This document shows positions 14,019 to 27,361 of a stretch of 54,487 bases of DNA, in pieces (the first letter of the stretch is position 1; every line of letters begins with the position of its first letter). Under the pieces are notes generated by a model. It was not told the DNA's origin and made no database searches. It was given only the letters and a program-made list of their open reading frames with translations. This DNA is from Arsukibacterium sp. UBA3155 (lineage in GTDB: Bacteria; Pseudomonadota; Gammaproteobacteria; Enterobacterales; Alteromonadaceae). A program made the position numbers and the translations under genes. Location: assembly GCA_002364615.1 (NCBI GenBank), contig DEYP01000026.1, forward strand, positions 1-54,487. Direction: 5' to 3'.

Positions 14019-15380
14019 TTAGCGAATCAGATGCCACTGCGTTTGCCGGCCGGCCAGATAAATAACCTGTCTGCCATCAAAGTAGGCACTTTGCTCCAGC
14101 TTAATCTGTACCAGTTGGCTCCACTCTGGCACGGTCTGTTTGATATTGCCTTCAATGGCATAAGCGGTATTGGCATAAAGTGGCCAGTCACCTTGCACCG
14201 GCGTATCGCCCTGATTATCCCACATGCCTATGGTTGGCCCCGGCGCATGGCCGACAAAACCCAATGGGTGGGTGTAGGTGCTGCTGTTAATGTCTGCTTT
14301 ATTAGCGGCGGCAATGGTCGCTGCCAATACTTGATTACCACTGCGGCCGGTCTTAAATTCGCCGGTCAGGATATCCTGCCAGCGGTTGCCGGTAGCCAGC
14401 GCTGCTTTTAGGCCTGCAGGGGCATCGGTTTCAGTATTTTTAAGGACGTAAGCCATTTCCTGCGTGTCGGTACACAGTTTCAGATAGCAAATACCAACAT
14501 CGGTATGCAAAACATCGCCGCGGTGAATAATACCACTGCTGCCGCAGGATGGACTGTCAGCTGCACACGCCATACCGGCACGTTGCAGGCTAACGTAAGG
14601 CATAAACCATACCGGTAATTGCAACTGCTCAAAGCGTTCACGCAGGTACCAGGCCACATCATCCGTGCTGGTAACACCGGGAGTAACGACCTTATTGCTA
14701 AACGCTTCGGCAATAACCGCGCGGGCTAAACTTACAATTTGCGGATAAATCTCCAGCTCGCTGCGGGTTCGCTGTTCCAGCCAGCGCACCACTAACTGTT
14801 CAGCCGATACCAGCCGGCTTTGGTAATCTGCCGGCAGTGCGGCCAGCAGCTGCTGATGCAGGCCGGAAGTTAAGCCATCGGCTACCGCCCAATGTTCAGA
14901 GTTATTAATACCAATGCTTTTCGGTTGGCGTTTAACAATTTCAGCAGCCAGCGCCTGCCATTGCTCGGTTAAATTACCGCCCGCCCAGGCCGATGTATAA
15001 GGTTCGCCGAGTGGGTAGCGATTCACCGACAGCTTATCAACGCTGCCGTCTTTATTGCGGCTAAACAGCAGCATAGTGGTGCGCCGCGCCGCAAAGGTGG
15101 GTTGGGGTACCAAGGTAAAATATACCGGATCTTCAGCATACTCCCGATTAATCACCAGCCACATATCCAGGTCTGAGTCAGCCATCAACTGCGGTAACAG
15201 CTGTTCAAGGCGCTCATTGAGGATGCGGTTTTCTGGCTCCACTCGCTGGCGTGGGCTCAGCACCTGATAGTCAGCTGCGCTAATAAGTTGACGGCCTTGG
15301 CTGAACGGCGTGGTATTAGCTGACAATGTCGCAGTCAACAGCAAAGTCGTCATCGTGGTTACTAGTGATAATATTTTCAT
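14019..15380 (-). CDS. secreted M24-family (Xaa-Pro aminopeptidase-like) metallopeptidase
   Basis: A 453-aa exported enzyme. The ATG at 15380 is preferred to the GTG at 15386 because that GTG lies inside the AGAGGTG ribosome site. A signal peptide covers about residues 1-22. An N-terminal creatinase-like domain is followed by the pita-bread catalytic domain. All five dinuclear-metal ligands can be placed: Asp in HTDVG, Asp in LCTDTQ, His in FVGHAPG, Glu in YAIEGN and Glu in IKLEQ. It is therefore probably active on Xaa-Pro or related peptides in the periplasm. It stands as a single gene. Prolidase activity cannot be excluded. Confidence 0.9.
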   Translation of the reverse strand: MKILSLVTTMTTLLLTATLSANTTPFSQGRQLISAADYQVLSPRQRVEPENRILNERLEQLLPQLMADSDLDMWLVINREYAEDPVYFTLVPQPTFAARRTTMLLFSRNKDGSVDKLSVNRYPLGEPYTSAWAGGNLTEQWQALAAEIVKRQPKSIGINNSEHWAVADGLTSGLHQQLLAALPADYQSRLVSAEQLVVRWLEQRTRSELEIYPQIVSLARAVIAEAFSNKVVTPGVTSTDDVAWYLRERFEQLQLPVWFMPYVSLQRAGMACAADSPSCGSSGIIHRGDVLHTDVGICYLKLCTDTQEMAYVLKNTETDAPAGLKAALATGNRWQDILTGEFKTGRSGNQVLAATIAAANKADINSSTYTHPLGFVGHAPGPTIGMWDNQGDTPVQGDWPLYANTAYAIEGNIKQTVPEWSQLVQIKLEQSAYFDGRQVIYLAGRQTQWHLIR

Positions 15381-15527
15381 GTTCACCTCTGAGCAGGGAT
15401 AAGTGTTTATTGTTTTAAGTCAAATAATATTAAAAAGCAATAGCTTAGATCGGAAGGCATTGTTTTTATCGTTGCTTCGATATATAAAGCCTTTTTGTTT
15501 ATTTTTTGTATATAAAAGCAGGCTTTA

Positions 15528-16853
15528 ATGAAAACATTATTAAAAATATTCGTGGCTACGCTACTGGTGTTGTTGGTGGTCTTATTGGCAATACTGGCAA
15601 ATGCCACGGTTGAATTAACCAAAGGTGGCGTTTACAGCAAGGTATATTTGCCAATAGTCGTGGGCGAAATAAAGTGGAACGCAGTTGGCAGTGTTCAGGC
15701 GAGTGAGCCGGCAATTTCTGGCTTGCAAGGCCCGGTTATTGTTAAAACTGCTTCGAAGTTGCAGGTAACAGCCTGGTGTCAGCATGAACGTATTGTGCAG
15801 GAGCTAACGCTTGCTGCCGGCAATGCGCAGCTGGATTGTCAGGGCCGCCAATATCATTATCGGTTCGACGGTGCGCCCCTTAACGTTAAAGCCGATATTG
15901 AAACGCCGGCAGCCGTTGCCGTGATTAGCGATCTGGAAGGCAACATCGAATTTTTTGAGCATTGGGCCCGTAACAGCGGTGTAACCGATGGCAATGGTGA
16001 CTGGCAGTTTGGCAACGGTCAGCTTATTGTCCTTGGTGATGCCGTCGACAGAGGACGTCAGGTGTACGATTTACTATGGCGGTTATATCAGCTGGCGCAG
16101 CAGGCTCAGCAACAGGGTGGCCAATTGCTGCTGTTACACGGTAATCATGAGCAATATGTGATGCGTGGCCTGGTTGATCGGGTAGAAACAGAGCATTTTT
16201 GGGCAATTGAACAACTTATGCCGTACGAGCAAAGTTTTGCTGCTGATACCGTGTTGGGTGGCTGGCTGCGACAACAACCTATAATTGCCAGAATGGGCAA
16301 CTATTTGTTTACCCACGGCGGTGTAAGCCCACAAGTACTGGCCAGCGGTTTAACGGTAGCGCAGCTTAATAAGCGCTACCACGACACTTTGCAGCAAACT
16401 AATGATCAGGTGAGCGAAGCTGACTATTCGTTGTTTTACGGTAGCAATGGCTTAAGCCAATACCGGGCACTGCTGTCGGATAATCATGACAGGGTATCCG
16501 GTGGCGATTGGCCACAGGCGCACCTGCAACAGATATTGGCCCACTTCAATGTGAAAGCACTGGTTATAGGCCATACCCCGGTAGCAAAGCCAACGGCATT
16601 GTATGATGGCCGGTTATTGGCGGTAGAGGCAGAGCAAACCAGCAGTGTTTTGATGATACATGACGGCGAGGCAACATTTACCGATATAGGCATGGTAAAA
16701 ACCCGCTTTAGCGAGCAACAACCACAATATCGCCCGTTTCGCTTGTTGTCGGCTGCCGATTGGCGGGCTCTAACGGCTAATAGACAGCATCTAAACGATT
16801 TAAACCATGCCAAAACTTTTTTTAATCGCGATAGAACGACTGACGGCAGTTAG
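15528..16853 (+). CDS. membrane-anchored PPP-like metallophosphoesterase
   Basis: A 441-aa protein with one N-terminal membrane helix (about 5-27) and a calcineurin-like phosphatase domain facing the periplasm (about 125-370). Motifs in order: SDLEGN, GDAVDRG, GNHE, THGG and GHTP. These match the PPP/Shelph layout except that motif 1 has Glu where DxHG enzymes have His, a metal-ligand position. Dinuclear metal phosphatase activity is likely but substrate is unknown. The stop codon lies in the loop of a perfect 13-bp hairpin shared with the convergent GGDEF gene. The ribosome site (AGG, 7 bases upstream) is weak. Confidence 0.85.
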   Translation: MKTLLKIFVATLLVLLVVLLAILANATVELTKGGVYSKVYLPIVVGEIKWNAVGSVQASEPAISGLQGPVIVKTASKLQVTAWCQHERIVQELTLAAGNAQLDCQGRQYHYRFDGAPLNVKADIETPAAVAVISDLEGNIEFFEHWARNSGVTDGNGDWQFGNGQLIVLGDAVDRGRQVYDLLWRLYQLAQQAQQQGGQLLLLHGNHEQYVMRGLVDRVETEHFWAIEQLMPYEQSFAADTVLGGWLRQQPIIARMGNYLFTHGGVSPQVLASGLTVAQLNKRYHDTLQQTNDQVSEADYSLFYGSNGLSQYRALLSDNHDRVSGGDWPQAHLQQILAHFNVKALVIGHTPVAKPTALYDGRLLAVEAEQTSSVLMIHDGEATFTDIGMVKTRFSEQQPQYRPFRLLSAADWRALTANRQHLNDLNHAKTFFNRDRTTDGS

Positions 16854-16865
16854 CCGTCAGTCGTT
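16835..16865. terminator. perfect 13-bp hairpin holding two convergent stop codons
   Basis: AACGACTGACGGC (16835-16847) and its exact reverse complement (16853-16865) flank the loop AGTTA. The phosphatase stop TAG is 16851-16853 and the cyclase stop TAA is 16852-16850 on the minus strand, so they overlap by two bases in the loop. No T-run follows in either direction, so it may act as a transcription block for convergent genes or a 3' mRNA stabiliser rather than a textbook intrinsic terminator. Confidence 0.7.
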
Positions 16866-18268
16866 GCGTAAACCAGAAATGGCAGGCCGGCGGCTTTTGC
16901 CCGATACATCGCTTGATCGGCCAGCTCAAATAACTGGGCTTGCGACGTGCTGTGTTGGGGGGCCATGGCAATACCAATACTCATATCCAGTTTTACTGTC
17001 ATTCTGGCAGCATGGCCTGGCTGCAGGGGCAGGCTTTGCGGTTGCTCCGTTACCTGATAAATACGCTCAGCAATGGCGGTTACCTCACCGCCGTGCTGCA
17101 CATGAGCTAACAATGCAAACTCATCGCCACCCAGCCGGGCAAATAGCTCGTCATCGCGGATGATGTTTTTTAATCGTTGCGCTAAATCGGTTAATACCTG
17201 ATCGCCAGCAGCATGGCCATGATTATCGTTGACGGCTTTAAAACCGTCTAAATCTATGACAAACAGCGCTAACGCTGCATGACCAGTGTTTTGATTAGCC
17301 AGGTTGCTCAGGCCATTGTGTAGTTTTGCTTCAAAATAACGGCGATTTGGTAACCCGGTCAGTGGGTCTAAATTTGCCAACCGTTCCATTTCGAGTAACT
17401 TGCCAACCCGCTCAGTAATATCCGTGTTAATTGATATATAGCCGGTATAGCGCTGCTGCTCATCATACAAAGGTTCTGCGTACACATGTACCCAAAAAGG
17501 CCTTTTTTGTTTGTTGTAATACAACACGTCCGTATTGACCGGCTGATGCTGCCGAACCAGCTGCTGTACTTTCTGAATGGTAGCAGGATTAGTGTCCGGC
17601 CCGGTAAAAAGGGCCATCGGCGTTTTCCCGGAAATCTCCTGCTGAGAGTAACCGCTTAATTTGCTAAAACCGCTATTACACCAAACCATTTCGTTTTTAA
17701 CGTTGGTGTAGACCACACCATTGGCGGTTTGCTCGGCAATCCAGGCCAGTCTCTGGTTTTCTGCCTGTAATGTTTTCAGGTACAATAGCTGAAATTCATT
17801 TTCAACGCTTTTGGCCAAATCAAGCAATAAACCTTGCTCCGCCTCGGTCAGGGTTCTTGGTGCGCTGTCAATTAAGCAGAGGGTGCCTAAGGCATAACCC
17901 GCATACGTTCGGATCACCGCACCGGCATAGAAGCGGATAAAAGGCTCCTTTGTTACCAGGGGGTTATCGGCAAAACGCGGGTCCAGCATTGCATCGGGTA
18001 TAACCAACAGTTCTTGCTCTGAAATAGCATGAGTGCAAAACGATATATCCCGGGCAGTGCCCTCAAGACAGGTACCCAGACGGGCTTTAAAAAACTGAGT
18101 TTTTTCATCCACCAGGGTTAGTAGCACGATGTCGGTTTTAAATAATGCTTTACCAAGGCGGACGATACGATCAAAACGTTCGTCGGCTGGAGTATTGATT
18201 AGCCCCAACTTATGCAAAGCCGCCACTCGGCTTTCTTCATCCGTAAGTATCGTGTTAGTTTCGATCAC
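16850..18268 (-). CDS. GAF-PAS-GGDEF diguanylate cyclase
   Basis: A 472-aa cytoplasmic enzyme making cyclic di-GMP from GTP. A GAF domain occupies about 25-165 with the ARDISFCTHAI stretch common in this architecture. A PAS domain occupies about 170-290 with a PAC-like end YISINTDITER. The GGDEF domain (about 300-465) has an intact GGDEF at 380-384. The product-inhibition site, usually RxxD five residues before, reads RDDE (371-374) and so may be weakened. It starts at GTG (18268) with AGGGG upstream. No EAL domain is present. It overlaps the convergent phosphatase stop by 4 bp. Confidence 0.93.
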   Translation of the reverse strand: MIETNTILTDEESRVAALHKLGLINTPADERFDRIVRLGKALFKTDIVLLTLVDEKTQFFKARLGTCLEGTARDISFCTHAISEQELLVIPDAMLDPRFADNPLVTKEPFIRFYAGAVIRTYAGYALGTLCLIDSAPRTLTEAEQGLLLDLAKSVENEFQLLYLKTLQAENQRLAWIAEQTANGVVYTNVKNEMVWCNSGFSKLSGYSQQEISGKTPMALFTGPDTNPATIQKVQQLVRQHQPVNTDVLYYNKQKRPFWVHVYAEPLYDEQQRYTGYISINTDITERVGKLLEMERLANLDPLTGLPNRRYFEAKLHNGLSNLANQNTGHAALALFVIDLDGFKAVNDNHGHAAGDQVLTDLAQRLKNIIRDDELFARLGGDEFALLAHVQHGGEVTAIAERIYQVTEQPQSLPLQPGHAARMTVKLDMSIGIAMAPQHSTSQAQLFELADQAMYRAKAAGLPFLVYATTDG

Positions 18269-18319
18269 GGAATTGCCCCTGTGTGTTCAACTTCAGTATC
18301 AACAGATAAACTCTTAGGC

Positions 18320-18353
18320 GAACTGAAATAACGTATGAACTGAATTAACGTAT
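18320..18353. repeat. 17-bp tandem repeat, two copies
   Basis: GAACTGAAATAACGTAT is followed directly by GAACTGAATTAACGTAT, with one difference. It lies in the divergent gap between the cyclase (start 18268) and the adenosine deaminase (start 18473). A diverged continuation, CAGTTTAACTATACG, may follow. It could be a pair of regulator half-sites about one and a half helical turns apart, or a slippage product. Confidence 0.7.
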
Positions 18354-18472
18354 CCAGTTTAACTATACGCTTGCGCTTAGAAAATAGCCTGAACTTTCTG
18401 GCTTTGCAGACAACATTAAGCCGCAACGGCTGATTTGCGATACACTATGTCAATACAAACTAAGGAGTTGCT

Positions 18473-19699
18473 ATGCCACGTTATTCTGCTGATTTTATTA
18501 AAGCGATGCCAAAGTCAGATTTACATCTGCATTTGGACGGCAGTCTGCGGCTGGACAGTCTGATTGAGATGGCGAAGCGCACGGACACTAAGTTGCCGTC
18601 GCAAAGTATTGACGGCTTGAAACAGCTGGTATTTAAAGATAAATACCAGAATCTGGGCGAATACTTACATTGTTTTCAGTATACCTGTGCCGTGCTGCGC
18701 GACCCGGAAAACCTCGAACGGGCGGCGTACGAGCTGGCGGTTGATAACCAGCTGGAGGGCGTAAACTATATTGAAGTGCGTTTTGCGCCGCAGCTGTTAA
18801 TCGACTTAAGCCGCGGTATCGATTTTGACCAGGTTATGCATGCGGTGAACAATGGTTTAAAGCGGGCAAAAGAAGAATATAACCGCACCGAAGCTGTGCT
18901 TAGCGGCAATAAACCTCCTTTTGGCTATGGCATTATTAATTGTGCAATGCGGATGTTTGGCGATAAAGGCTTCTCGCCTTACTACACTAATCTGTTTCAG
19001 CTAATGCGCGACTTTGCGCCGATGGATGTGATTAAACTGGCAGCCATGGAGCTGGTGCGGGCCAGCGTAAGGTTACGTGATGAAAATGACATGCCAATTG
19101 TGGGCCTCGACTTAGCAGGACAGGAGTCGGGCTATCCGGCAAGCAAGTTTAAAGAAGTGTACGAATACGCGCATCAGCATTTTATGCTGAAAACCCTGCA
19201 TGCCGGCGAGGCCTATGGTGCAGAAAGCGTATTTGAGGCCATTACCGAATGCTATGCCGATCGGATTGGTCATGGTTATTCGATGTTTATACCCGAGATG
19301 ATCCACAGCCCGGAGATTAATGATAAAGCGGCGTATATTCGTAACCTGGCCAGCTATATCGCCGACAAACGGATAGCCATAGAAGTTTGCCTGACCAGTA
19401 ACCTGCAAACCAACCCGCAGCTTACCGATATTCGGCAGCATCAGTTTAAAGCCATGCTGGATAACCGGATGGCGACCGTGATCTGTACTGACAACCGCCT
19501 GGTCTCTAACACGACGGTATGTAACGAATACCAACTGGCGCTCGACAACTTTGACATTCCGCTGAAGCGGTTAAAAGACATGGTAGCGTATGGCTTTAAG
19601 AAGAGCTTTTTTCCTGGCAGCTATGTAGAAAAACGCCAGTATGCGAAAAACTGTCTGGATTACTTTGATCGGGTGGCTAAGCAATATGGATTTATTTAA
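18473..19699 (+). CDS. adenosine deaminase-family enzyme
   Basis: A 408-aa zinc-dependent deaminase-fold protein, probably converting adenosine to inosine in purine salvage. Zn ligands His18 and His20 lie in HLHLDG, HAGE is at 243-246, RIGHG at 264-268 and SNLQTN near 309. The final metal motif reads CTDN (338-341): Asp340 is kept but the second Asp of the classical TDD, which contacts the base, is Asn341. The chain is longer than E. coli Add (333 aa). AAGGAG lies 7 bases before ATG. It is not followed by a clear terminator before the regulatory region at 19723. Substrate preference may differ from classical Add. Confidence 0.88.
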   Translation: MPRYSADFIKAMPKSDLHLHLDGSLRLDSLIEMAKRTDTKLPSQSIDGLKQLVFKDKYQNLGEYLHCFQYTCAVLRDPENLERAAYELAVDNQLEGVNYIEVRFAPQLLIDLSRGIDFDQVMHAVNNGLKRAKEEYNRTEAVLSGNKPPFGYGIINCAMRMFGDKGFSPYYTNLFQLMRDFAPMDVIKLAAMELVRASVRLRDENDMPIVGLDLAGQESGYPASKFKEVYEYAHQHFMLKTLHAGEAYGAESVFEAITECYADRIGHGYSMFIPEMIHSPEINDKAAYIRNLASYIADKRIAIEVCLTSNLQTNPQLTDIRQHQFKAMLDNRMATVICTDNRLVSNTTVCNEYQLALDNFDIPLKRLKDMVAYGFKKSFFPGSYVEKRQYAKNCLDYFDRVAKQYGFI

Positions 19700-19722
19700 T
19701 TAAAACAACAAGATGATGGCTT

Positions 19723-19740
19723 TGTCGCAAAAAGCATACA
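19723..19740. promoter_or_regulatory. second, imperfect GlrR-type site
   Basis: TGTC-N10-TACA (TGTC at 19723-19726, TACA at 19737-19740) differs at one base from TGTC-N10-GACA. Its centre is 65 bp upstream of the perfect site. Enterobacterial glmY promoters carry several such sites in a row, so this may be an additional weak GlrR box; alone it would be unremarkable. Confidence 0.35.
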
Positions 19741-19782
19741 TCTTATATCATTGATTAATAAGCTATAAATATTAAGACGGAT

Positions 19783-19810
19783 AATAGTGTCTCTAATCGC
19801 AGACACTATT
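19783..19810. promoter_or_regulatory. GlrR/QseF-type upstream activating site (TGTC-N10-GACA)
   Basis: A perfect inverted repeat with 9-bp arms AATAGTGTC (19783-19791) and GACACTATT (19802-19810) around a 10-base centre. The core TGTC-N10-GACA is exactly the consensus described for GlrR/QseF binding in enterobacteria. It lies about 108 bp upstream of the start predicted from the sigma54-like element, a normal distance for an enhancer-binding protein. The matching regulator is encoded at 22238-23587. Confidence 0.75.
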
Positions 19811-19877
19811 AATCAAAAGAACAGTTTTTAAAGCCTTAAAATAACATATGGTATTGATATTAAAGTAAAATAAAAAG

Positions 19878-19894
19878 TTGGCACAACACTTGAT
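19878..19894 (+). promoter_or_regulatory. sigma54-like (-24/-12) promoter of the 62-aa membrane protein gene
   Basis: TTGGCACAACACTTGAT matches the sigma54 consensus TTGGCAC-N5-TTGCW, with GG at 19880-19881 and a 10-base spacing to the -12 dinucleotide, which is GA here instead of GC (19892-19893). Predicted start is near 19904, about 20 bases upstream of the start codon. The single -12 deviation lowers certainty, but the upstream enhancer site and nearby sigma54 activator gene raise it. Confidence 0.68.
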
Positions 19895-19923
19895 ACACCT
19901 AAGGTAATTACCGGAGGTGTGTT

Positions 19924-20112
19924 ATGGATTTATTCTTAGTATTTATCACGATGTTTCTGGTTGCCAACATGATGCTAGTGGTGACAATGTTACGTCGGGT
20001 CGATTTAAACAACCCCAGTGTTCAAGCCTGGGAAGCGCAAAATGCGACAGCAGTGTTGCAGCCTGCCGCAGCCGTAACTTATACACCAGCTTACGTGCCC
20101 GAAGCGCAGTAA
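19924..20112 (+). CDS. 62-aa single-span membrane protein, candidate GlrR target
   Basis: Residues 4-23 form one hydrophobic helix, followed by RR and a soluble tail of about 38 residues rich in Ala, Pro and Gln. A very strong ribosome site (GGAGG, 7 bases from ATG) shows it is translated. I do not recognise the family. It is a single-gene unit: sigma54-like promoter at 19878-19894, TGTC-N10-GACA site at 19783-19810 and an intrinsic terminator at 20159-20191. The transcript would be about 290 nt. It sits immediately before the GlrK-QseG-GlrR operon, so it could report envelope stress or modulate the kinase. That role is inference. Confidence 0.75.
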   Translation: MDLFLVFITMFLVANMMLVVTMLRRVDLNNPSVQAWEAQNATAVLQPAAAVTYTPAYVPEAQ

Positions 20113-20158
20113 GCCCACCGACATTCCCATGAGTTCAGCTTCTTGCTGAATGCTTGTT

Positions 20159-20191
20159 CAGGCCAGCCCTCCTTACTGGCCTGTTTTTTTT
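20159..20191 (+). terminator. intrinsic terminator between the 62-aa gene and the kinase gene
   Basis: CAGGCCAG (20159-20166) pairs with CTGGCCTG (20176-20183) around a 9-base loop and is followed by eight T residues. This is a textbook terminator and separates the 62-aa gene from glrK. Confidence 0.92.
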
Positions 20192-20239
20192 AGTTAAACA
20201 GGTTATGCTAACGCTAACTTTTTCTGAGTTTAACTGCCT

Positions 20240-21652
20240 ATGCGCTTTCCTTTGCAAACCGCTTCACTGCGTCAACTGGTTATTCTGAGCTTTTTGCTGG
20301 CTATGATCCCGGTCGGGGTGCTGATGTGGCAAAGCCATAAAGCCTTGTCAGGCTTAAGCCGGTTTGCGACAAGCGAGGCGGAACGTGCCGTAATCAGTGT
20401 GCGCCGGGCGGAAAATATGCAAAACCTGGTGGTAGATATTGAACGGGCGGTGCGCCAGTATGCGGTAGTGAAAACCGACGCACTGGCCCGGGTAGCGCAA
20501 AGCCATATCAGCAATCAGCAGGCCAGTCTCAGCGAGCTATGCAACGATTTACCGGAACTCAGTGATTGCCTGCAACAGCAGACAGAATTACAGCAGTTAG
20601 CCGCTCAATTTACACAGCTTAGCGGCCCCCCGCTGGAACAGCAGTTGCAGCAGATCAGGTTACGGCAACAACGGATTAGCCAGCAGATATGGGACTTGCT
20701 GGAACAGCGGTTGCAGAACCAACAGCAGCTGGTACAAGATGCGCAGCAGCGTCAGGCCTGGCAAACGGTAGCATTGGTGTTGCTAACCTTGTTGTTAGTG
20801 CTGTGGGCATCGGGCCGGGTGGCTGCACCGGTGCAAAAATTGGATAAAATGATCCGGGCCATTGGTCAGCAGCAAAATTTCCCTGACGGTAAGCTCGAAG
20901 GGCCCCGCGAATTGTCTGAGCTGGGTGAGCAATTGCGCTGGCTTAGTTCACGCCTGCAGCAACTGGAAGCACTGCGGCTTATTTTGCTGCGCCATGCATC
21001 CCATGAATTAAAAACGCCGTTATCCAGTATTCGGGAAGGCTGCGCGCTACTTACTGAACAATTATTAGGTCCATTAAACCCCCAACAACTGGAAGTTGTT
21101 ATGCTGCTTAATGGCAGCGCCGACCGCTTAAGTCAGTTAACCGAGCAGTTACTGGATTACAACCGGTTGTTGCAGCAAGCGAAACCCGAATTAAGCCGTC
21201 AGGTGCCACAGCAGCTGCTGCAAACCTGCTTTGCCGACCACGCTTTATCGTTGCAGCAGCGTCAGCAACAAATCAAGCTGGATTGTCAGCTCAGCAGTAT
21301 TTATACCGACGACACGTTATTCCGGCGCATTCTGGATAACCTGATCAATAATGCGCAGGCTTATGGTGCAGAAAGTAGTCCGGTTTGGGTTAAACTTTAT
21401 AAAAAAGACGATATGCTGGTGCTGGATGTGGCCAATAATGGTGCGCCTATTCCTACCGCGTTGCGAGAAAAACTATTTGAACCCTTTCAGCGCGGTACGA
21501 CCCCAAGGTTTGATGCGGTTCAGGGCTCAGGCCTTGGCTTGTCCATTGTGGCTGACTGTGCCCGTCTGCTGGGTGGCCATGCTGATATTGTTGATGTGGT
21601 CTATGCGGATGTATGTATCAGAGTGCGCTTACCACTGTTAGAGGAAAAGTAA
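20240..21652 (+). CDS. glrK: sensor histidine kinase, GlrK/QseE-type
   Basis: A 470-aa inner-membrane kinase that phosphorylates the response regulator encoded two genes downstream. Membrane helices lie at about 11-32 and 173-192, with a periplasmic coil between. The HisKA phosphoacceptor is in RHASHELKTPLSSIREG. The ATP-binding domain shows N-box NLINNAQAYG and G-box GSGLGLSI. The gene order kinase, small lipoprotein, sigma54-type regulator is the GlrK-QseG-GlrR arrangement of gammaproteobacteria, where it responds to envelope state and drives glmY or rpoE. The symbol rests mainly on that synteny. The downstream gene starts 1 base after the stop. Confidence 0.85.
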   Translation: MRFPLQTASLRQLVILSFLLAMIPVGVLMWQSHKALSGLSRFATSEAERAVISVRRAENMQNLVVDIERAVRQYAVVKTDALARVAQSHISNQQASLSELCNDLPELSDCLQQQTELQQLAAQFTQLSGPPLEQQLQQIRLRQQRISQQIWDLLEQRLQNQQQLVQDAQQRQAWQTVALVLLTLLLVLWASGRVAAPVQKLDKMIRAIGQQQNFPDGKLEGPRELSELGEQLRWLSSRLQQLEALRLILLRHASHELKTPLSSIREGCALLTEQLLGPLNPQQLEVVMLLNGSADRLSQLTEQLLDYNRLLQQAKPELSRQVPQQLLQTCFADHALSLQQRQQQIKLDCQLSSIYTDDTLFRRILDNLINNAQAYGAESSPVWVKLYKKDDMLVLDVANNGAPIPTALREKLFEPFQRGTTPRFDAVQGSGLGLSIVADCARLLGGHADIVDVVYADVCIRVRLPLLEEK

Positions 21653-21653
21653 C

Positions 21654-22238
21654 ATGAGAATTATGCTGATAATACTGCTGGCAACGCTGTCAGGCTGCCA
21701 GCTGTTAAACCAGCAGTTGCCTGCAACAGAACCCGAAGCAGAGCCGGAAATAACCGAACAACCCGCCTTACCGCCACCTAGCGAGCCAAATAGCGAGGTT
21801 GTGCTAAGCCTGAGTGATGATGCTGCGACATTACAAGCCTGGGTTTATTATCGTGCCGGTATATTGCAAAACCTGGCAGCATGGCGCGAGGCGTTAGCGG
21901 ATTTACCCGAACCCGACCAGGTACAAATACTGCAGCGGATTATGGTGCTGCTGCATCCCGACATCCCTTATTTAACCCGGCTGCGGGTGCAAATGCAGTT
22001 AGCGGAGCAAATTGCCATATTGCCCCCGGGGCTGGCGGCGCTTTTTAGCTGGGATTTAACCTTGAATCAGAAATTACTGGAAACGGAGTCGGCAGTCAGT
22101 GCCCTGACCCGACTCAATGCCCAGCAGCATGATAATATTGAGCGGCTGCAAAAAAAGAACAAAGATTTGCAGAAAAAAATTGATGCGCTTACCCAGATTG
22201 AAGCGCAACTTAATCAAAGTATCAACGGGGGAATATAG
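21654..22238 (+). CDS. QseG-like lipoprotein of the GlrKR system
   Basis: A 194-aa lipoprotein. The signal peptide ends at the lipobox LSGC (Cys at 15). A Pro/Glu-rich linker (about 22-50) is followed by a helical domain and a C-terminal coiled coil (about 145-190) with repeated Lys and Gln. Length, position between kinase and regulator, and helical make-up match QseG, which in E. coli is an outer-membrane lipoprotein that stimulates the kinase QseE. Sequence similarity in this family is low, so the match is by position and layout. It overlaps the regulator GTG by one base. Confidence 0.78.
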   Translation: MRIMLIILLATLSGCQLLNQQLPATEPEAEPEITEQPALPPPSEPNSEVVLSLSDDAATLQAWVYYRAGILQNLAAWREALADLPEPDQVQILQRIMVLLHPDIPYLTRLRVQMQLAEQIAILPPGLAALFSWDLTLNQKLLETESAVSALTRLNAQQHDNIERLQKKNKDLQKKIDALTQIEAQLNQSINGGI

Positions 22239-23587
22239 TGGCCGACCCTAAACCGCGTTTATTGTTGGTTGATGACGACCCAAGCTTATTGCGGCTGCTG
22301 ACCTTAAGGCTGGAAGGTGAGGGTTATCAGGTAGTAAATGCTGATTGCGCAGAAACAGCGTTGACTATTCTTAACAAACAGAGCTTTGATGTGGTGCTAA
22401 GCGATTTACGGATGCCTGGCCTTGATGGCATGAGTCTTTTCGATGAAATTGCAAAACGTTACAAGGGCCTACCGGTAGTACTGATGACTGCCCATGGTTC
22501 TATCCCGGAAGCGGTAGCGGCTACGCAGCGTGGCGTATTCGGGTTCTTAACCAAGCCACTTAACAATGTTGAGCTGCGCGATATCTTACAGCAGGCAGTG
22601 CATCAATCGGTGCCCGAACAGGCCGACTGGCGCGAGGAAATCGTCAGCCGCAGCCCGCTAATGTCAGCGTTGCTGGAGCAAGCCTATCGGGTGGCACAGC
22701 GCGATGTCAGCATACTGATTACCGGTGCCAGTGGCACTGGTAAAGAGTTGCTGGCCAAAGCGATACATAAAGCCAGCCCCCGGGCCAAGCAGCATTTTGT
22801 GGCAATAAACTGTGGCGCCCTGCCAGAGCATCTGCTGGAATCTGAATTGTTTGGTCATAGCAAAGGTGCTTTCACCGGCGCGGTGTCAGAGCATGGCGGG
22901 CTATTTCGCGAGGCCGACGGCGGTACGCTGTTTTTAGATGAAATAGGCGATATGCCGGTGGCCTTGCAGGTAAAATTGTTGCGCGCCTTGCAGGAGCGGC
23001 AGATCCGGCCGGTAGGCAGCAGTAAAAGTATTCCGATAAATGTCAGGGTACTGTCGGCTACTCATCGTGATTTACAACAGGCAATGGCAGAGGGGAGTTT
23101 CCGGGAAGACTTATACTACCGGTTAAATGTGGTAAACCTGCAATTGCCTGGCCTGGAGCAACGACCGGAAGATATTCCGTTGCTGGCGCGTCATGTTTTG
23201 GCGCAAAGCGCCGAGCGACATAATGTTAAAGTCACGCGGTTTGCTGACGATGCATTGCAAACCCTGGCGACAGCCAAATGGCCTGGCAATGTCAGGCAGT
23301 TGGTTAATGTGGTGGAGCAGTGTGTTGCACTGACCCATAGCCCGGTGATTGGCCAGAGCCTGGTAGAGCAGGCGTTGTCGCAAAACAGCAGCTACTGGCC
23401 GACGTTGACGGATGCACGCGACCAGTTTGAACGCCAATATTTAGTTCGGGTGCTGAAAATGACTGAGGGCAATGTCACCCGCGCTGCGGAACTAGCAGGA
23501 CGCAATCGTACCGACTTTTATAAATTATTAAAAAAACACGATCTCAGTGCGGCTCAGGTCGCTGCCGAAGACGAAGAGCTGGAGTAA
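22238..23587 (+). CDS. glrR: sigma54-dependent response regulator, GlrR/QseF-type
   Basis: A 449-aa NtrC-class activator. The receiver domain (1-120) has the phosphoacceptor Asp56 in SDLRMPGLDG and the Lys of LTKPL near 109. The AAA+ domain shows Walker A GASGTGKE and the sigma54-contact loop GAFTGA, both intact. The Fis-type helix-turn-helix at the C terminus includes VTRAAELAGRNRTDFYKLLKK. It starts at GTG (22238) overlapping the lipoprotein stop, with GGGGGA upstream. It most likely binds the TGTC-N10-GACA repeat at 19783-19810 and activates the sigma54-like promoter of the 62-aa gene. Confidence 0.9.
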   Translation: MADPKPRLLLVDDDPSLLRLLTLRLEGEGYQVVNADCAETALTILNKQSFDVVLSDLRMPGLDGMSLFDEIAKRYKGLPVVLMTAHGSIPEAVAATQRGVFGFLTKPLNNVELRDILQQAVHQSVPEQADWREEIVSRSPLMSALLEQAYRVAQRDVSILITGASGTGKELLAKAIHKASPRAKQHFVAINCGALPEHLLESELFGHSKGAFTGAVSEHGGLFREADGGTLFLDEIGDMPVALQVKLLRALQERQIRPVGSSKSIPINVRVLSATHRDLQQAMAEGSFREDLYYRLNVVNLQLPGLEQRPEDIPLLARHVLAQSAERHNVKVTRFADDALQTLATAKWPGNVRQLVNVVEQCVALTHSPVIGQSLVEQALSQNSSYWPTLTDARDQFERQYLVRVLKMTEGNVTRAAELAGRNRTDFYKLLKKHDLSAAQVAAEDEELE

Positions 23588-23635
23588 GGCCACCGCCTGT
23601 TTTACACTTAGCACTTTTTGACAGAGGATACGGTA

Positions 23636-23986
23636 ATGAGTGCCATAACGCCCCCCGATGCCCAGCTGGCAGAAGATGCCGAAAACCCGGAGCTGCGCAA
23701 AGCGAAAATTATCAGTGAAACGGCCAGGATCCACTGGCCACAATTGCAGAAATTTTATGCCGCAGGCTCGGTAGTGACGGTCGGTGCTGAACATGACCTG
23801 GTAAACGTGGCGTTTGCCTTTAGTGCCGACGATAAAGCGCAGGTAGCAGACTGGCTGGCACAGGGCACAGTAGAGCGGACAACCGAGCAGCAGGCGCAGC
23901 AATGGTTCGATAATAATACTGAGCTGTGGGCTGTGGTCATTTCGCCATGGGTTCTGGTACAGGACAAACCTGTGCAGGTTAATTAA
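23636..23986 (+). CDS. DUF2288 family protein
   Basis: A 116-aa soluble protein from the ATG at 23636, preceded by AGAGG; a TTG at 23618 is unlikely. The core, from ELRKAKIISETARIHWPQL to ELWAVVISPWVLVQ, is the DUF2288 pattern, with the DDKAQVADWL segment in the middle. No function is established for this family. It lies 48 bp after glrR and 21 bp before the thioesterase on the same strand, so read-through transcription is possible. Confidence 0.82.
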   Translation: MSAITPPDAQLAEDAENPELRKAKIISETARIHWPQLQKFYAAGSVVTVGAEHDLVNVAFAFSADDKAQVADWLAQGTVERTTEQQAQQWFDNNTELWAVVISPWVLVQDKPVQVN

Positions 23987-24007
23987 TAAGAAGACGTGGG
24001 GCTGGCT

Positions 24008-24562
24008 ATGGCAACGTATAAAACGATCGAGAGTTCAGAAATTACCTTATCGCAACTGATGCTGCCGTCACATTCTAATTTCAGCGGTAAAATTCATGGT
24101 GGTTATTTACTGTCGCTGATGGATCAGATTGCGTTTGCCAGTGCCTCAAAATTCAGCGGCAGTTATTGTGTGACTGCCTCGGTCGACCGGGTCGACTTCT
24201 TAAATCCGATTGAAGTGGGTGAATTAGTCACCTTAAAAGCATCGGTCAATTTTGTCGGTACTACCTCAATGATGGTAGGGATCCGGGTCGACGCGCAGAA
24301 TATTCAAACGGGCATTATCAAGCACTGCAACTCATCATATTTTACGATGATCGCGAAAGATGAAAGCGGTTCGACCTTGCCGGTGCCAAGATTGCGTTTA
24401 ATCAGTCGGGAACAGGTAATGCGCTACTTAAAAGCGGCCGAGCGGATTAGCGCGCGTAAACAGCGGATTGCCAGTGAGCCTTTCAACGGTGACCTGGCCG
24501 CAGCGCTGGCTTTTATGGCCAGCGACCACGCTGACGTTGACGTTAAGGGACTGAGTACTTAA
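24008..24562 (+). CDS. YciA/BACH-type acyl-CoA thioesterase
   Basis: A hotdog-fold thioesterase of 184 aa hydrolysing acyl-CoA esters. The family core is clear: KIHGGYLLSLMDQIAFASA contains the helix and the catalytic Asp, followed by TASVDRVDFLNPIEVGELV. The ATG at 24008 is preferred; a GTG at 23996 lacks a ribosome site. Residues after about 125 form a helical extension that is longer than in E. coli YciA (132 aa) and is not assigned. It converges with the cupin gene across a 15-bp gap. Confidence 0.88.
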   Translation: MATYKTIESSEITLSQLMLPSHSNFSGKIHGGYLLSLMDQIAFASASKFSGSYCVTASVDRVDFLNPIEVGELVTLKASVNFVGTTSMMVGIRVDAQNIQTGIIKHCNSSYFTMIAKDESGSTLPVPRLRLISREQVMRYLKAAERISARKQRIASEPFNGDLAAALAFMASDHADVDVKGLST

Positions 24563-24577
24563 GTCATGACGGCCAGC

Positions 24578-25621
24578 TTAACGGTTTAACTGCGCTGCCA
24601 GCCATTGGTGCAGACCTTGCGCCAGTTGTGGTGTCAGCTTACCTTGCACCCCTCTGGCCTCTGCAGGAATATGGGCCAATGGATCTGCCGGATTAAATAA
24701 ATAATGCTGTAACATGCTTTGCCAGGCTGCTCGCTCACCCAAAGGCATATGATTGAACGCCTGTATCGCATGCAATAGCATCGGCAAGGGCAGGGCGCTG
24801 GCAACATAGGCATTGCTCCACCAGTAATTGACCAGCACATTAAAATCACTGAGCGAGGTGACGCTATGCCACCATGGACTTGGGATATAAATGGCATCGC
24901 CTGCATCTAATTCAACCGATAAGCCGGCCTGATAGGCATTAGCGTAAAGCGGATGCGCTTGTAAATCAGGTTGTTGCAAATTAACCATACTTATTGGCTG
25001 GCCAGCAGGGGTGAGATCGAGCGGCCCAATATATAAATTGGCTACCTGCTCTGGCGGGAACAGGGTAAAACGCCGTTTGCCTGCTGCTACCACGGCAATG
25101 TTGCTCGCTTCGTCAAAATGGGCCGGCACGGTTACCCGGGTACCCAACCAGATAAAGGGCTTGGGGCTTGGGTCCAGCAGAGGGTTGTTTAATTCAGGTA
25201 ATAAGGCGCTGAAGTTATCTGCCACCGGGACACACTGCACACAGTAATGCGGGCTGCCGGCAGCGCTACTTTTTAGCATGGTATCAATAGCCGTGTTAAG
25301 CGGTTGCTGACTGGCACTGAAGTTCATGCCATTTATGGCATTGTTGTAGAACAGCCGACCGCTGGTTTGGGCAGGCAGGCTGACCAGCTTTTGTGGCTTA
25401 TTGTTACTTCGCGCCGTCAGATAGGCCGCGGCCTCTGGTAGCGCTTGCTTGGCCGCTTGCACCAGCGGCCAATGCGCTGCAAAACCCCGCAGCACCACCG
25501 GCCGGTAGTGATTGGTCACCTTTTCGGCAAAGTTGGCCGCTGTTACGCCGCTGACTTCGGTCGGCGGCGGTAAATTTTCCAGCGCATATTGCTGAAGACT
25601 GTCCGGTTGGTTAGTGCCCAT
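24578..25621 (-). CDS. cupin/JmjC-like 2-oxoglutarate-dependent oxygenase
   Basis: A 347-aa protein of the cupin_8 (FIH/JmjC) group, which uses Fe(II) and 2-oxoglutarate to hydroxylate protein side chains or small molecules. RPVVLRGFAAHWP near residue 40 opens the typical N-terminal fold. The iron ligands are placed in AHFDEASN (His and Asp) and in SPWWHSVTS (His), and the Lys/Arg for 2OG is probably in KRRFTLFPP. CAGGAA precedes the ATG. It lies 12 bp after ggt and is probably co-transcribed. Substrate unknown. Confidence 0.85.
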   Translation of the reverse strand: MGTNQPDSLQQYALENLPPPTEVSGVTAANFAEKVTNHYRPVVLRGFAAHWPLVQAAKQALPEAAAYLTARSNNKPQKLVSLPAQTSGRLFYNNAINGMNFSASQQPLNTAIDTMLKSSAAGSPHYCVQCVPVADNFSALLPELNNPLLDPSPKPFIWLGTRVTVPAHFDEASNIAVVAAGKRRFTLFPPEQVANLYIGPLDLTPAGQPISMVNLQQPDLQAHPLYANAYQAGLSVELDAGDAIYIPSPWWHSVTSLSDFNVLVNYWWSNAYVASALPLPMLLHAIQAFNHMPLGERAAWQSMLQHYLFNPADPLAHIPAEARGVQGKLTPQLAQGLHQWLAAQLNR

Positions 25622-25633
25622 TTATTTCCTGCG

Positions 25634-27361
25634 TTAGTAACCGGCTGCCTGGCCATCTTTGCGTGACTCTGATGCGCCAATATAGGTGCCGTTTTCGTGA
25701 TCTTTCATAATGGCCTGATAGCCACCATAACCGCCCAAGCCGTAGCGCACCTCGTGGCCTTTTAGCATCAAATCACGCACTGTACTGTAAGGTACACCAC
25801 GTTCTACTTCAATATAACCACCATTGGTCAGATATGTATCCTGGCCGTCGGTAGGTTCGGTATTGCCCAAATGCTGCCAGCGCGCCGCGTCACCGGCTTC
25901 CTGCAGGTTCATACCGTAATCAACCATATTGATCAGAATTTGCACATGCCCCTGTGGTTGCATGGCGCCGCCCATTACGCCGTAGCTGACCAACGGCTTG
26001 CCGTCTTTGGTAATAAAGGCCGGGATAATAGTATTAAACGGTCTTTTGCCGGGTTGGTAAACGTTAGCGTGGTTTTTATCCATCGAGAACAACTGGCCGC
26101 GGTCCTGAAACACAAAGCCAAGACCAGGCACAACCACACCAGAACCCATACCACGGTAGTTGCTTTGAATTAACGACACCATATTGCCGTCTTTATCGGC
26201 AGTGGTCATGTAAATGGTGTCGCCTTCATATAAATGTGGATTACCAGCGTCAACGCGCTTTGCCGCCCGTTCGCCAATCAGTTTCGCCCGTTCGCTGCCA
26301 TACTCTGCAGAGATTAAGCCCTGCAGCGGTGTTTTATGAAAATCCTGATCGGCATAAAACTTAGCGCGGTCTTCAAACGCCAGTTTCTTTGCTTCAACCA
26401 GGGTATGAATACTTTGTGGAGTATTAAACCCCATGGCTTTTAAATCGAAATTTTTCAGAATTTGCAGCATTTGCAAGGCGGCGATGCCCTGGCCGTTTGG
26501 CGGCAGTTCCCACAGGGTATACCCTTTGTAATCAACCCCTACCGGTTCTACCCAGGTAGAACGATGGTTAGCGAAATCGGCAAAGCGCAGATAACCGCCG
26601 TTGGCTCGCATAAAGCGGTCAATTTGTACCGCGATCTCACCGTTATAAAAGGCGTCACGGCCGTCTTTGGCCAGGGCTTTGTAGGTATTGGCCAGCGCCG
26701 GGTTTTTAAAAATCTGGCCTTTAACCGGTGCCTTACCATTAATGGTAAAAGTGCCCTTAAAATCACCCGGCTGCGGGCTGAGTAACGGCACTGACCGGTT
26801 CCAGTAATAGGCGATAAGCTCGGTTACCGGAAAGCCCTGTTCGGCATAGTTTATAGCCGGTTGCAGAATGCTGGCCATCTTTAGTTTGCCGAATTTTTTA
26901 TGTAGCTCAAACCAGCCATCCACCGCACCCGGCACGCTGATTGGCAGCATACCATGTGGTGGTAAGTCGGTGCGGCCAAGCTGTTCCAGCTCATGGGCCA
27001 GCATGTCATAACTTAAACTCAGTGGCGAGCGACCAGAGGCATTTAACCCATGCAGTTTACCCGTTTTAGCATCCCAGACTATGGCATATAAATCACCACC
27101 AATACCATTACCGGTGGGCTCCATTAAACCGAGCGCGGCGTTTGCAGCTATGGCAGCATCAATAGCGTTGCCGCCATTTTTCATGGTGTCCAGGGCAATC
27201 TGGGTAGCCAGCGGGTGGCTGGTGGCGGCCATCGCGTGCTGTGCAATCACTTCTGAGCGGCTTGCGAAGTCATGGCCTGTTACCCTGTCATAAGCGTTGG
27301 CAGCAAGGCTGGCCAGCAAAGTAGCACTGGCCAGCAAGCTAACAGATAGGCGTAATTTCAT
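25634..27361 (-). CDS. ggt: gamma-glutamyltransferase (periplasmic, autoprocessing)
   Basis: This enzyme cleaves gamma-glutamyl bonds of glutathione and related compounds and can transfer the glutamyl group. The start at 27361 gives a clean signal peptide (cleavage after ANA at about 23) and has AAAGGT upstream; a longer start at 27439 would overlap the thioesterase gene. The large-subunit region includes NGGNAIDAAIAANAALGLMEP and GNGIGGD. The nucleophile Thr lies in EGDTIYMTTADKDGNMVS, where the proenzyme cuts itself. The small subunit ends with GGxGGYQAI and the C-terminal YIGASESRKDGQAAGY. Mature length is about 553 aa, normal for the family. Confidence 0.93.
   Translation of the reverse strand: MKLRLSVSLLASATLLASLAANAYDRVTGHDFASRSEVIAQHAMAATSHPLATQIALDTMKNGGNAIDAAIAANAALGLMEPTGNGIGGDLYAIVWDAKTGKLHGLNASGRSPLSLSYDMLAHELEQLGRTDLPPHGMLPISVPGAVDGWFELHKKFGKLKMASILQPAINYAEQGFPVTELIAYYWNRSVPLLSPQPGDFKGTFTINGKAPVKGQIFKNPALANTYKALAKDGRDAFYNGEIAVQIDRFMRANGGYLRFADFANHRSTWVEPVGVDYKGYTLWELPPNGQGIAALQMLQILKNFDLKAMGFNTPQSIHTLVEAKKLAFEDRAKFYADQDFHKTPLQGLISAEYGSERAKLIGERAAKRVDAGNPHLYEGDTIYMTTADKDGNMVSLIQSNYRGMGSGVVVPGLGFVFQDRGQLFSMDKNHANVYQPGKRPFNTIIPAFITKDGKPLVSYGVMGGAMQPQGHVQILINMVDYGMNLQEAGDAARWQHLGNTEPTDGQDTYLTNGGYIEVERGVPYSTVRDLMLKGHEVRYGLGGYGGYQAIMKDHENGTYIGASESRKDGQAAGY

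Follow-up and report, generated by a model that had tools for sequence, protein, structure and literature searches.

A small membrane protein gene under a putative GlrR-sigma54 switch in the glmY slot of Arsukibacterium and its relatives

Studies of GlmY in enterobacteria treat it as the output of QseE/QseF, and elsewhere the slot that it occupies, directly upstream of the kinase gene glrK, appears to hold protein genes. GlmY may be one lineage's solution and, as the slot outside enterobacteria appears to carry protein genes, the task that the system has kept may be control of the envelope through whichever cargo resides there. The locus described here puts the question in a testable form: is the product of the slot the feedback arm of GlrK/GlrR? 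The whole stretch of DNA that was analysed, called the window (54,487 nt of Arsukibacterium sp. UBA3155), lies on contig 3 of a 3.9-Mb genome, and a first-pass annotation had read a short segment of it as a compact unit in which an apparent GlrR/sigma54 switch governs the gene of a 62-aa membrane protein. That reading is partly supported. Conservation supports the controlled unit and a real protein, while the glmY slot and its filling by EF-hand genes in relatives had been overlooked; additionally, the leader hairpin of the genus and the conservation of the 3′ UTR go beyond what was first noticed.

On the left of the locus is an adenosine deaminase gene (18473-19699). The two activator sites and the sigma54-type promoter come next, ahead of the 62-aa ORF and its two-hairpin 3′ end, and to the right of these lie the genes for GlrK, a lipoprotein and GlrR; the unit and the operon behind it are read on the forward strand. 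The proximal GlrR/QseF-type site (19782..19811) is the perfect inverted repeat of the first reading, with arms of 11 bp (19782-19792 and 19801-19811, read from the sequence) around TGTC-N10-GACA at 19788-19805, a described form of the site (PMC8745638). The distal site, TGTCGCAAAAAGCATACA (19723..19740), is separated from it by 65 bp and had been recorded as carrying one mismatch; it does depart from TGTC-N10-GACA, but it is a full fit to the TGTN12ACA consensus published for QseF (PMC6075780). The promoter TTGGCACAACACTTGAT (19878..19894) has the form GG-N10-G with GA at -12, as first described, and the start inferred from it predicts a 5′ leader of about 20 nt (19904..19923) containing the Shine-Dalgarno (SD) sequence GGAGG at 19913-19917. 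Between activator site and promoter, 19847..19859 shows one mismatch to the IHF consensus, and a further IHF-like site is found at 19744-19756.

The ORF (19924..20112) encodes a single-span membrane protein with a conserved core (residues 1-37) and a variable tail, and is followed by a 3′ UTR composed of UCCCAUGA, a hairpin, a linker, a terminator and U8. Here, the conserved stretch ATTCCCATGAG (20123..20133) is a candidate seed, hairpin 1 is formed by TTCAGC-loop-GCTGAA (20134..20150), and the intrinsic terminator CAGGCCAG-N9-CTGGCCTG (20159..20191) comprises a stem-loop at 20159-20183 and T8 at 20184-20191. A terminator scan of the window called none, missing this one because its loop of 9 exceeds the maximum of 8 that the scan allows. 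The operon downstream consists of a GlrK/QseE-type sensor kinase (20240..21652; synteny supports the assignment), a lipoprotein in the position of QseG (21654..22238), with a lipobox, LSGC, recognised by eye and no QseG match in Pfam and NCBIfam, and a response regulator (22238..23587) with a GAFTGA loop. The regulator is named GlrR/QseF-type because the NCBIfam GlrR model (NF011695) is by far its best match (695.1 bits; next model, 406 bits), at a score under the curated cut-off of 763. The elements recorded by the first-pass annotation are confirmed.

Is the switch more than a chance arrangement of short motifs? Taken singly, the motifs occur at chance frequency: the window has 11 TGTN12ACA against 13.9 expected and 3 TGGCAYN5TTG against 2.3 expected, and the whole genome has 31 TGTC-N10-GACA against 62 for the reversed control, that is, no enrichment. 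In combination, TGTC-N10-RACA followed after 50-80 nt by TTGGCAY has a single match in the genome, at the unit (control: 0 forward, 3 reverse). A relaxed pattern of site plus promoter, with which further targets were sought, gave 141 matches in 31 genomes against 77 for the control, with 1-12 per genome, and 25 of the 141 lie in the slot upstream of glrK. What exceeds chance is conservation.

Conservation of site, promoter and ORF at orthologous loci had been named beforehand as a check on the unit, and it is found. Promoter and sites were compared in 45 loci of three genera (31 of the window's genus, g1; 4 of g42; 10 of g45). Two TGTN12ACA sites spaced by exactly 65 bp are present in 43 of them, L034 and L046 having one strict site each. 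GG-N10-G occurs in all 45, as required by the search pattern; the independent point is TTGGCAC or TTGGCAT, which is kept in 41 loci and absent in L009, L028, L040 and L055. The dinucleotide at -12 is GC in 20 loci, GT in 18 and GA in 7, and all seven GA belong to the window's clade (7 of its 8 loci). GA weakens the fit of the promoter; being a feature of the clade, with GT or GC in relatives, it is therefore no fatal mismatch. In every one of the 45 loci, the promoter starts 46-165 nt upstream of the small ORF. IHF-like sites with at most one mismatch stand at offset -30, -31 or -41 in 34/45 loci and in 3/8 of the window's clade, counts made without a chance control; a role for IHF at the glmY switch, as well as conservation of the gene order glmY-qseEGF, has been published (PMC6075780). 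Taken together, the conservation supports a unit under GlrR-type/sigma54 control.

The small protein itself is found in 31/31 genomes of the genus, and a profile search of the family matched 27 of 246 genomes (12 of g1, 4 of g42, 10 of g45 and one spurious match of 18 bits, in L058, which sits inside an unrelated ORF). Beyond the family, an order-wide search matched 6 of 345 genomes, five of them in g1 or g45; the sixth match, of 24 bits, has two stops. The 28 loci related by this protein are assigned to Arsukibacterium (7), Alishewanella and Rheinheimera, with two placed only as Gammaproteobacteria. The window's clade (L005-L012) is called Arsukibacterium-like because the nearest loci, with small proteins 71-82% identical, are Arsukibacterium. 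Alignments of the protein comprised 16 and 14 sequences picked for variety. Over codons 2-37, the eight loci of the window's clade give a pS of 0.33 and a pN of 0.009 (dN/dS ~0.02), and pairwise differences among 30 distinct genus sequences number 4257, 1745 and 7753 at codon positions 1, 2 and 3, the third positions varying most. As far as sequence can say, the ORF is translated into a real protein under strong purifying selection, in agreement with the first reading.

Neither Pfam nor NCBIfam matched the 62-aa protein at E up to 1. Its hydropathy peaks at 2.5 over 19 residues from residue 3, AlphaFold2 predicts helices at 2-28 and 31-44 with a low-confidence tail (mean pLDDT, 70.6), and the charges flanking the helix suggest, by the positive-inside rule, an N-out/C-in topology. 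At the C-terminus (20092-20109 in the window), the end residues become alike again past the variable linker (-KAA, -EAA, -LAQ, -KAQ); a similar end is seen in most genus loci, L012 being without it, and recalls a degron or binding tag. Descent from the EF-hand protein that fills the slot in relatives, considered for a shared "IDLNG" look, was rejected, as hhalign gave a profile probability of 1%.

The first-pass annotation had also suggested that the transcript might act both as mRNA and as regulatory RNA. This remains plausible, with the 3′ UTR as the sRNA-like part; a relation to GlmY does not, given that no GlmY/GlmZ match was found (see below). Hfq-type sRNAs from 3′ UTRs are marked by a conserved seed, hairpins, a U-rich linker and a terminator whose U run is about 7 or longer. 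In the genus, CCCAT is kept in 27/31 loci and TCCC in 29/31, the seed being absent in L013 and L017 and altered in L034 and L040, and the U run measures 7-10 in 28/31 loci and 6 in L013, L017 and L019. When 8 Arsukibacterium-like loci are compared with 14 of the Rheinheimera type (a set without the Alishewanella type, L013 included, and without L029, L034 and L040), seed, hairpin 1 and linker are 84% identical, or 80% over the longer length, terminator and U run excluded, and the 8-nt candidate seed TCCCATGA is 96% identical. The same comparison gives 67% for codons 1-37, 56% for their third positions, 64% for the ORF tail and 68% for the 60 nt past the terminator. As the nucleotides of the 3′ UTR are more conserved than those of the ORF (84% against 67%), an Hfq-type 3′-UTR sRNA is suggested, and a 3′ UTR of this kind is a good candidate for a new mRNA-sRNA hybrid.

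In the 3′ UTR alignment (18 of 31 loci), 98.6% of cells are paired and both sides have changed in 2 of 12 pairs, counts that lean in favour of the structure because the seedless L013 and L017 are among the loci omitted. Shuffled alignments reached the two-pair covariation count in 47/500 cases and the number of pair types in 500/500, so that covariation is thin; folding z-scores of seven of the 31 3′ UTRs range from -3.4 to -5.5. A search with the 3′ UTR model covered 54 sources, the window itself being among the model sequences, and nothing over 21.7 bits was found in 53 regions outside the genus. Weak matches of 16.9 and 15.1 bits lie behind the small ORF of two g45 loci, and the module is not common to the genus and g42 or g45. 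Complements of the seed show no excess in the window's own genome (10, as 4 and 6, one being the site itself, against 12, as 5 and 7, for the control), and the search yielded no target. A likeness of the 3′ UTR of L025 to ncS54 (Burkholderia sRNA 54) was set aside as one of shape at most (26.1 bits, where the cut-off is 43; E 0.06).

These results bear directly on the strongest alternative, which shares the core of our reading: a plain small-protein mRNA, controlled by GlrR and sigma54, of which only the protein matters and whose 3′ UTR is simply the terminator region. The strong selection on the protein agrees with it, as do the thin covariation, the frequent conservation of terminators in general and the failure of the 3′ UTR model to find more than weak g45 matches outside the genus, but against it stand a seed, hairpin and linker better conserved between two clades than the ORF. 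We give this alternative a somewhat less than even chance, and we consider it an evenly balanced matter whether the 3′ UTR functions as RNA.

The 5′ leader differs markedly among relatives. It measures 20 nt in the window's clade and 58-139 nt in the other 37 of the 45 loci, and in 23/31 genus loci it reaches 107-139 nt and carries a covarying hairpin just past the inferred start. Nineteen of these 23 were aligned (L015 and L031, identical to others, L026, a near copy, and L028 were left out); in them, both sides have changed in 6 of 17 pairs and 97.5% of cells pair, and shuffles reached the covariation score in 0/500 cases and the number of pair types in 177/500. The leader model, searched in 57 sources, has no match in the window, L006, L008 or L012, the hairpin being absent from the window's clade, and outside the genus its only match is a weak one in the g45 leader of L128 (21.6 bits, E 0.02; opposite strand, 19.7 bits). 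In the fold predicted for the window's transcript, SD and start codon are both paired (mean unpaired probabilities of 0.16 and 0.00), which would speak against easy translation.

A second alternative has the unit expressed from some other promoter, with the sites serving autoregulation of the glrK operon. In a distant (paralogous or diverged) group of GlrR, at 55-59%, sites do lie close before the kinase gene in several regions: L089, L090, L092 and L094-L097 carry, ~90-300 nt upstream of the estimated kinase start, sites of the TGTC-N10-GACA type with no more than one mismatch, which suggests autoregulation in that group. Co-transcription of glmY-qseEGF has also been reported in Proteus mirabilis (PMC8745638). 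In the genus, by contrast, the unit is set off from glrK by a conserved terminator in 31/31 loci; the promoter precedes the small ORF at 46-165 nt throughout the 45 loci, a sigma70 scan gave no site at the right place, and qseEGF of E. coli is reported not to be autoregulated (PMC6075780). We regard this alternative as improbable.

What fills the slot in other bacteria? Eighty regions upstream of GlrR-type genes were taken, of which 53 have a GlrK match of at least 200 bits; the RNA-family scan covered 28 of the 80, only 7 of them EF-hand regions. GlmY above the Rfam cut-off was found upstream of glrK in 11 of the 28 scanned regions, in other lineages. A small EF-hand ORF stands directly before glrK in 34/53 regions (e.g., L070, L073, L075, L076 and L077), and many of the encoded proteins, 11 of which were aligned, begin like a signal peptide, as judged by eye. 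Neither cargo was found in 8/53 regions (L078, L086, L087, L088, L093, L142, L150, which is cut short, and L151), all RNA-scanned except L142 and L150. Promoter-like elements, some of them weak, were called in 30 of the 34 EF-hand units; within 300 nt before the promoter, 25 of these 30 have one or more strict TGTN12ACA sites, in 17 cases at -79 to -92, a count made without a shuffled control. An EF-hand gene downstream of GlrR-type sites and a sigma54-like promoter raises a possible calcium link of GlrK/GlrR.

The switch looks shared across the slot, and the cargo lineage-specific. A GlrK tree with 55 rows places the eight small-cargo rows in a single group (96/90), and the cargo labels cluster strongly on it (6 changes, as opposed to 22.9 after shuffling); deep placement in this tree is unsure owing to long branches, the genus is represented by one row, the window, and L069, L075, L137, L141 and L151 (start misplaced) and L150 (cut) are left out. 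The simplest account of the sequences would be one old switch whose cargo changed lineage by lineage.

Two further features of the slot deserve description. EF-hand leaders of ~200 nt contain a conserved RNA element in L059, L062-L064, L067, L068 and L137-L141, with related forms in L061 and L069: a hairpin with loop UGGUUCCU, a hairpin around GGCUGCGAUGGCGUUUGCAACU and then GGCAAGGAUGCC, which resembles a CsrA site. The leaders of L059, L061 and L069 had no Rfam match at E 0.1, and most EF-hand leaders fold with no lower energy than shuffles do. Allowing a single mismatch, a 17-nt core of the element occurs in 25 of the 246 genomes of the family; exact matches number 14, of which 9 lie in glrK regions among those taken. 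Additionally, in L128 (1270-2133), a 287-aa ORF lies between the small ORF and glrK and is a tandem repeat of one ~35-aa unit.

The similarity of slot and switch to those of glmY, the RapZ-like protein (domain) encoded in the window's genome and the covarying leader hairpin of 23/31 genus loci could be taken to mean that the unit is a diverged GlmY, a RapZ decoy to which an ORF was added, but this is very improbable indeed, as Rfam GlmY (RF00128) and GlmZ gave no match in the window at 15000-26000 (E up to 1) or in 12 genus loci (E up to 5), GlmZ (RF00083) was not found genome-wide (150 of 211 first-look candidates scored) and the window's clade lacks the leader hairpin.

We therefore return to a GlrR-sigma54 switch that governs a small inner-membrane protein from the slot of glmY, a core reading that we consider quite probable. 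What comparison supports is the unit together with its conservation, coding nature and slot, and the constraint on its 3′ UTR; GlrR binding, the part of IHF, the transcription start, Hfq and the feedback are what we infer. Phosphorylated GlrR would bind the two sites 65 bp apart, IHF would probably bend the DNA, and GlrR would drive sigma54 polymerase at 19878-19894. The product would be a monocistronic transcript of ~288 nt, ending at the terminator ahead of glrK and translated into an inner-membrane protein with one helix, N-out/C-in, and a cytoplasmic tail. The 3′ UTR, with its seed, hairpin, linker, terminator and U8, may be freed or may serve as an Hfq-dependent regulatory RNA, so that the transcript would possibly be of dual function (mRNA and RNA), standing in for GlmY. 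The unit would then be this lineage's counterpart of glmY, alike in slot and switch and different in cargo.

A partner in the inner membrane is the most likely target of the protein, in the service of envelope homeostasis, and GlrK is the first candidate. RapZ stimulates QseE/QseF in E. coli, and GlmY, by sequestering RapZ, counteracts this (PMC7073468); the small protein could exert local feedback on GlrK as GlmY does indirectly via RapZ, a doubtful proposal drawn from position and analogy only. A wider form, in which the slot is an evolutionary cargo bay whose occupant here is a dual-function transcript, with a protein that feeds back on GlrK and a released 3′ UTR that is an Hfq sRNA, and for which EF-hand proteins and GlmY are alternative outputs brought under one ancient switch, is possible and, in our view, rather unlikely as a whole.

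Several known systems resemble the unit in part. MgrB and SafA are small membrane modulators of sensor kinases, and the 62-aa protein is like them, by description, in being small, single-span and possibly active on a kinase. Dual-function RNAs such as SgrS/SgrT join a small ORF and an RNA module in one short transcript; the unit likewise has an ORF and a candidate RNA module, and its regulator differs. GlnZ, from the glnA mRNA (PMC9731577), is comparable in that a regulated mRNA carries a conserved seed in its 3′ UTR, which a terminator closes; unlike GlnZ, the unit is known from sequence alone and its host mRNA encodes a 62-aa protein. The glmY locus of Enterobacteriaceae (PMC6075780) is another such system. 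In the literature searched, we saw no protein-coding gene described for the glmY slot. GlmZ was not found in the window's genome, unlike in the Enterobacteriaceae system, and the unit has two strict activator sites against the three described for glmY (PMC6075780) and the mRNA of a small membrane protein as cargo instead of GlmY. By contrast, the order glmY-qseE(glrK)-qseG-qseF(glrR), with its operon of kinase, lipoprotein and regulator, is matched by the unit and its neighbours, as are the TGTN12ACA-type sites, the sigma54-type promoter, the IHF-like sites and the slot directly upstream of glrK (PMC6075780).
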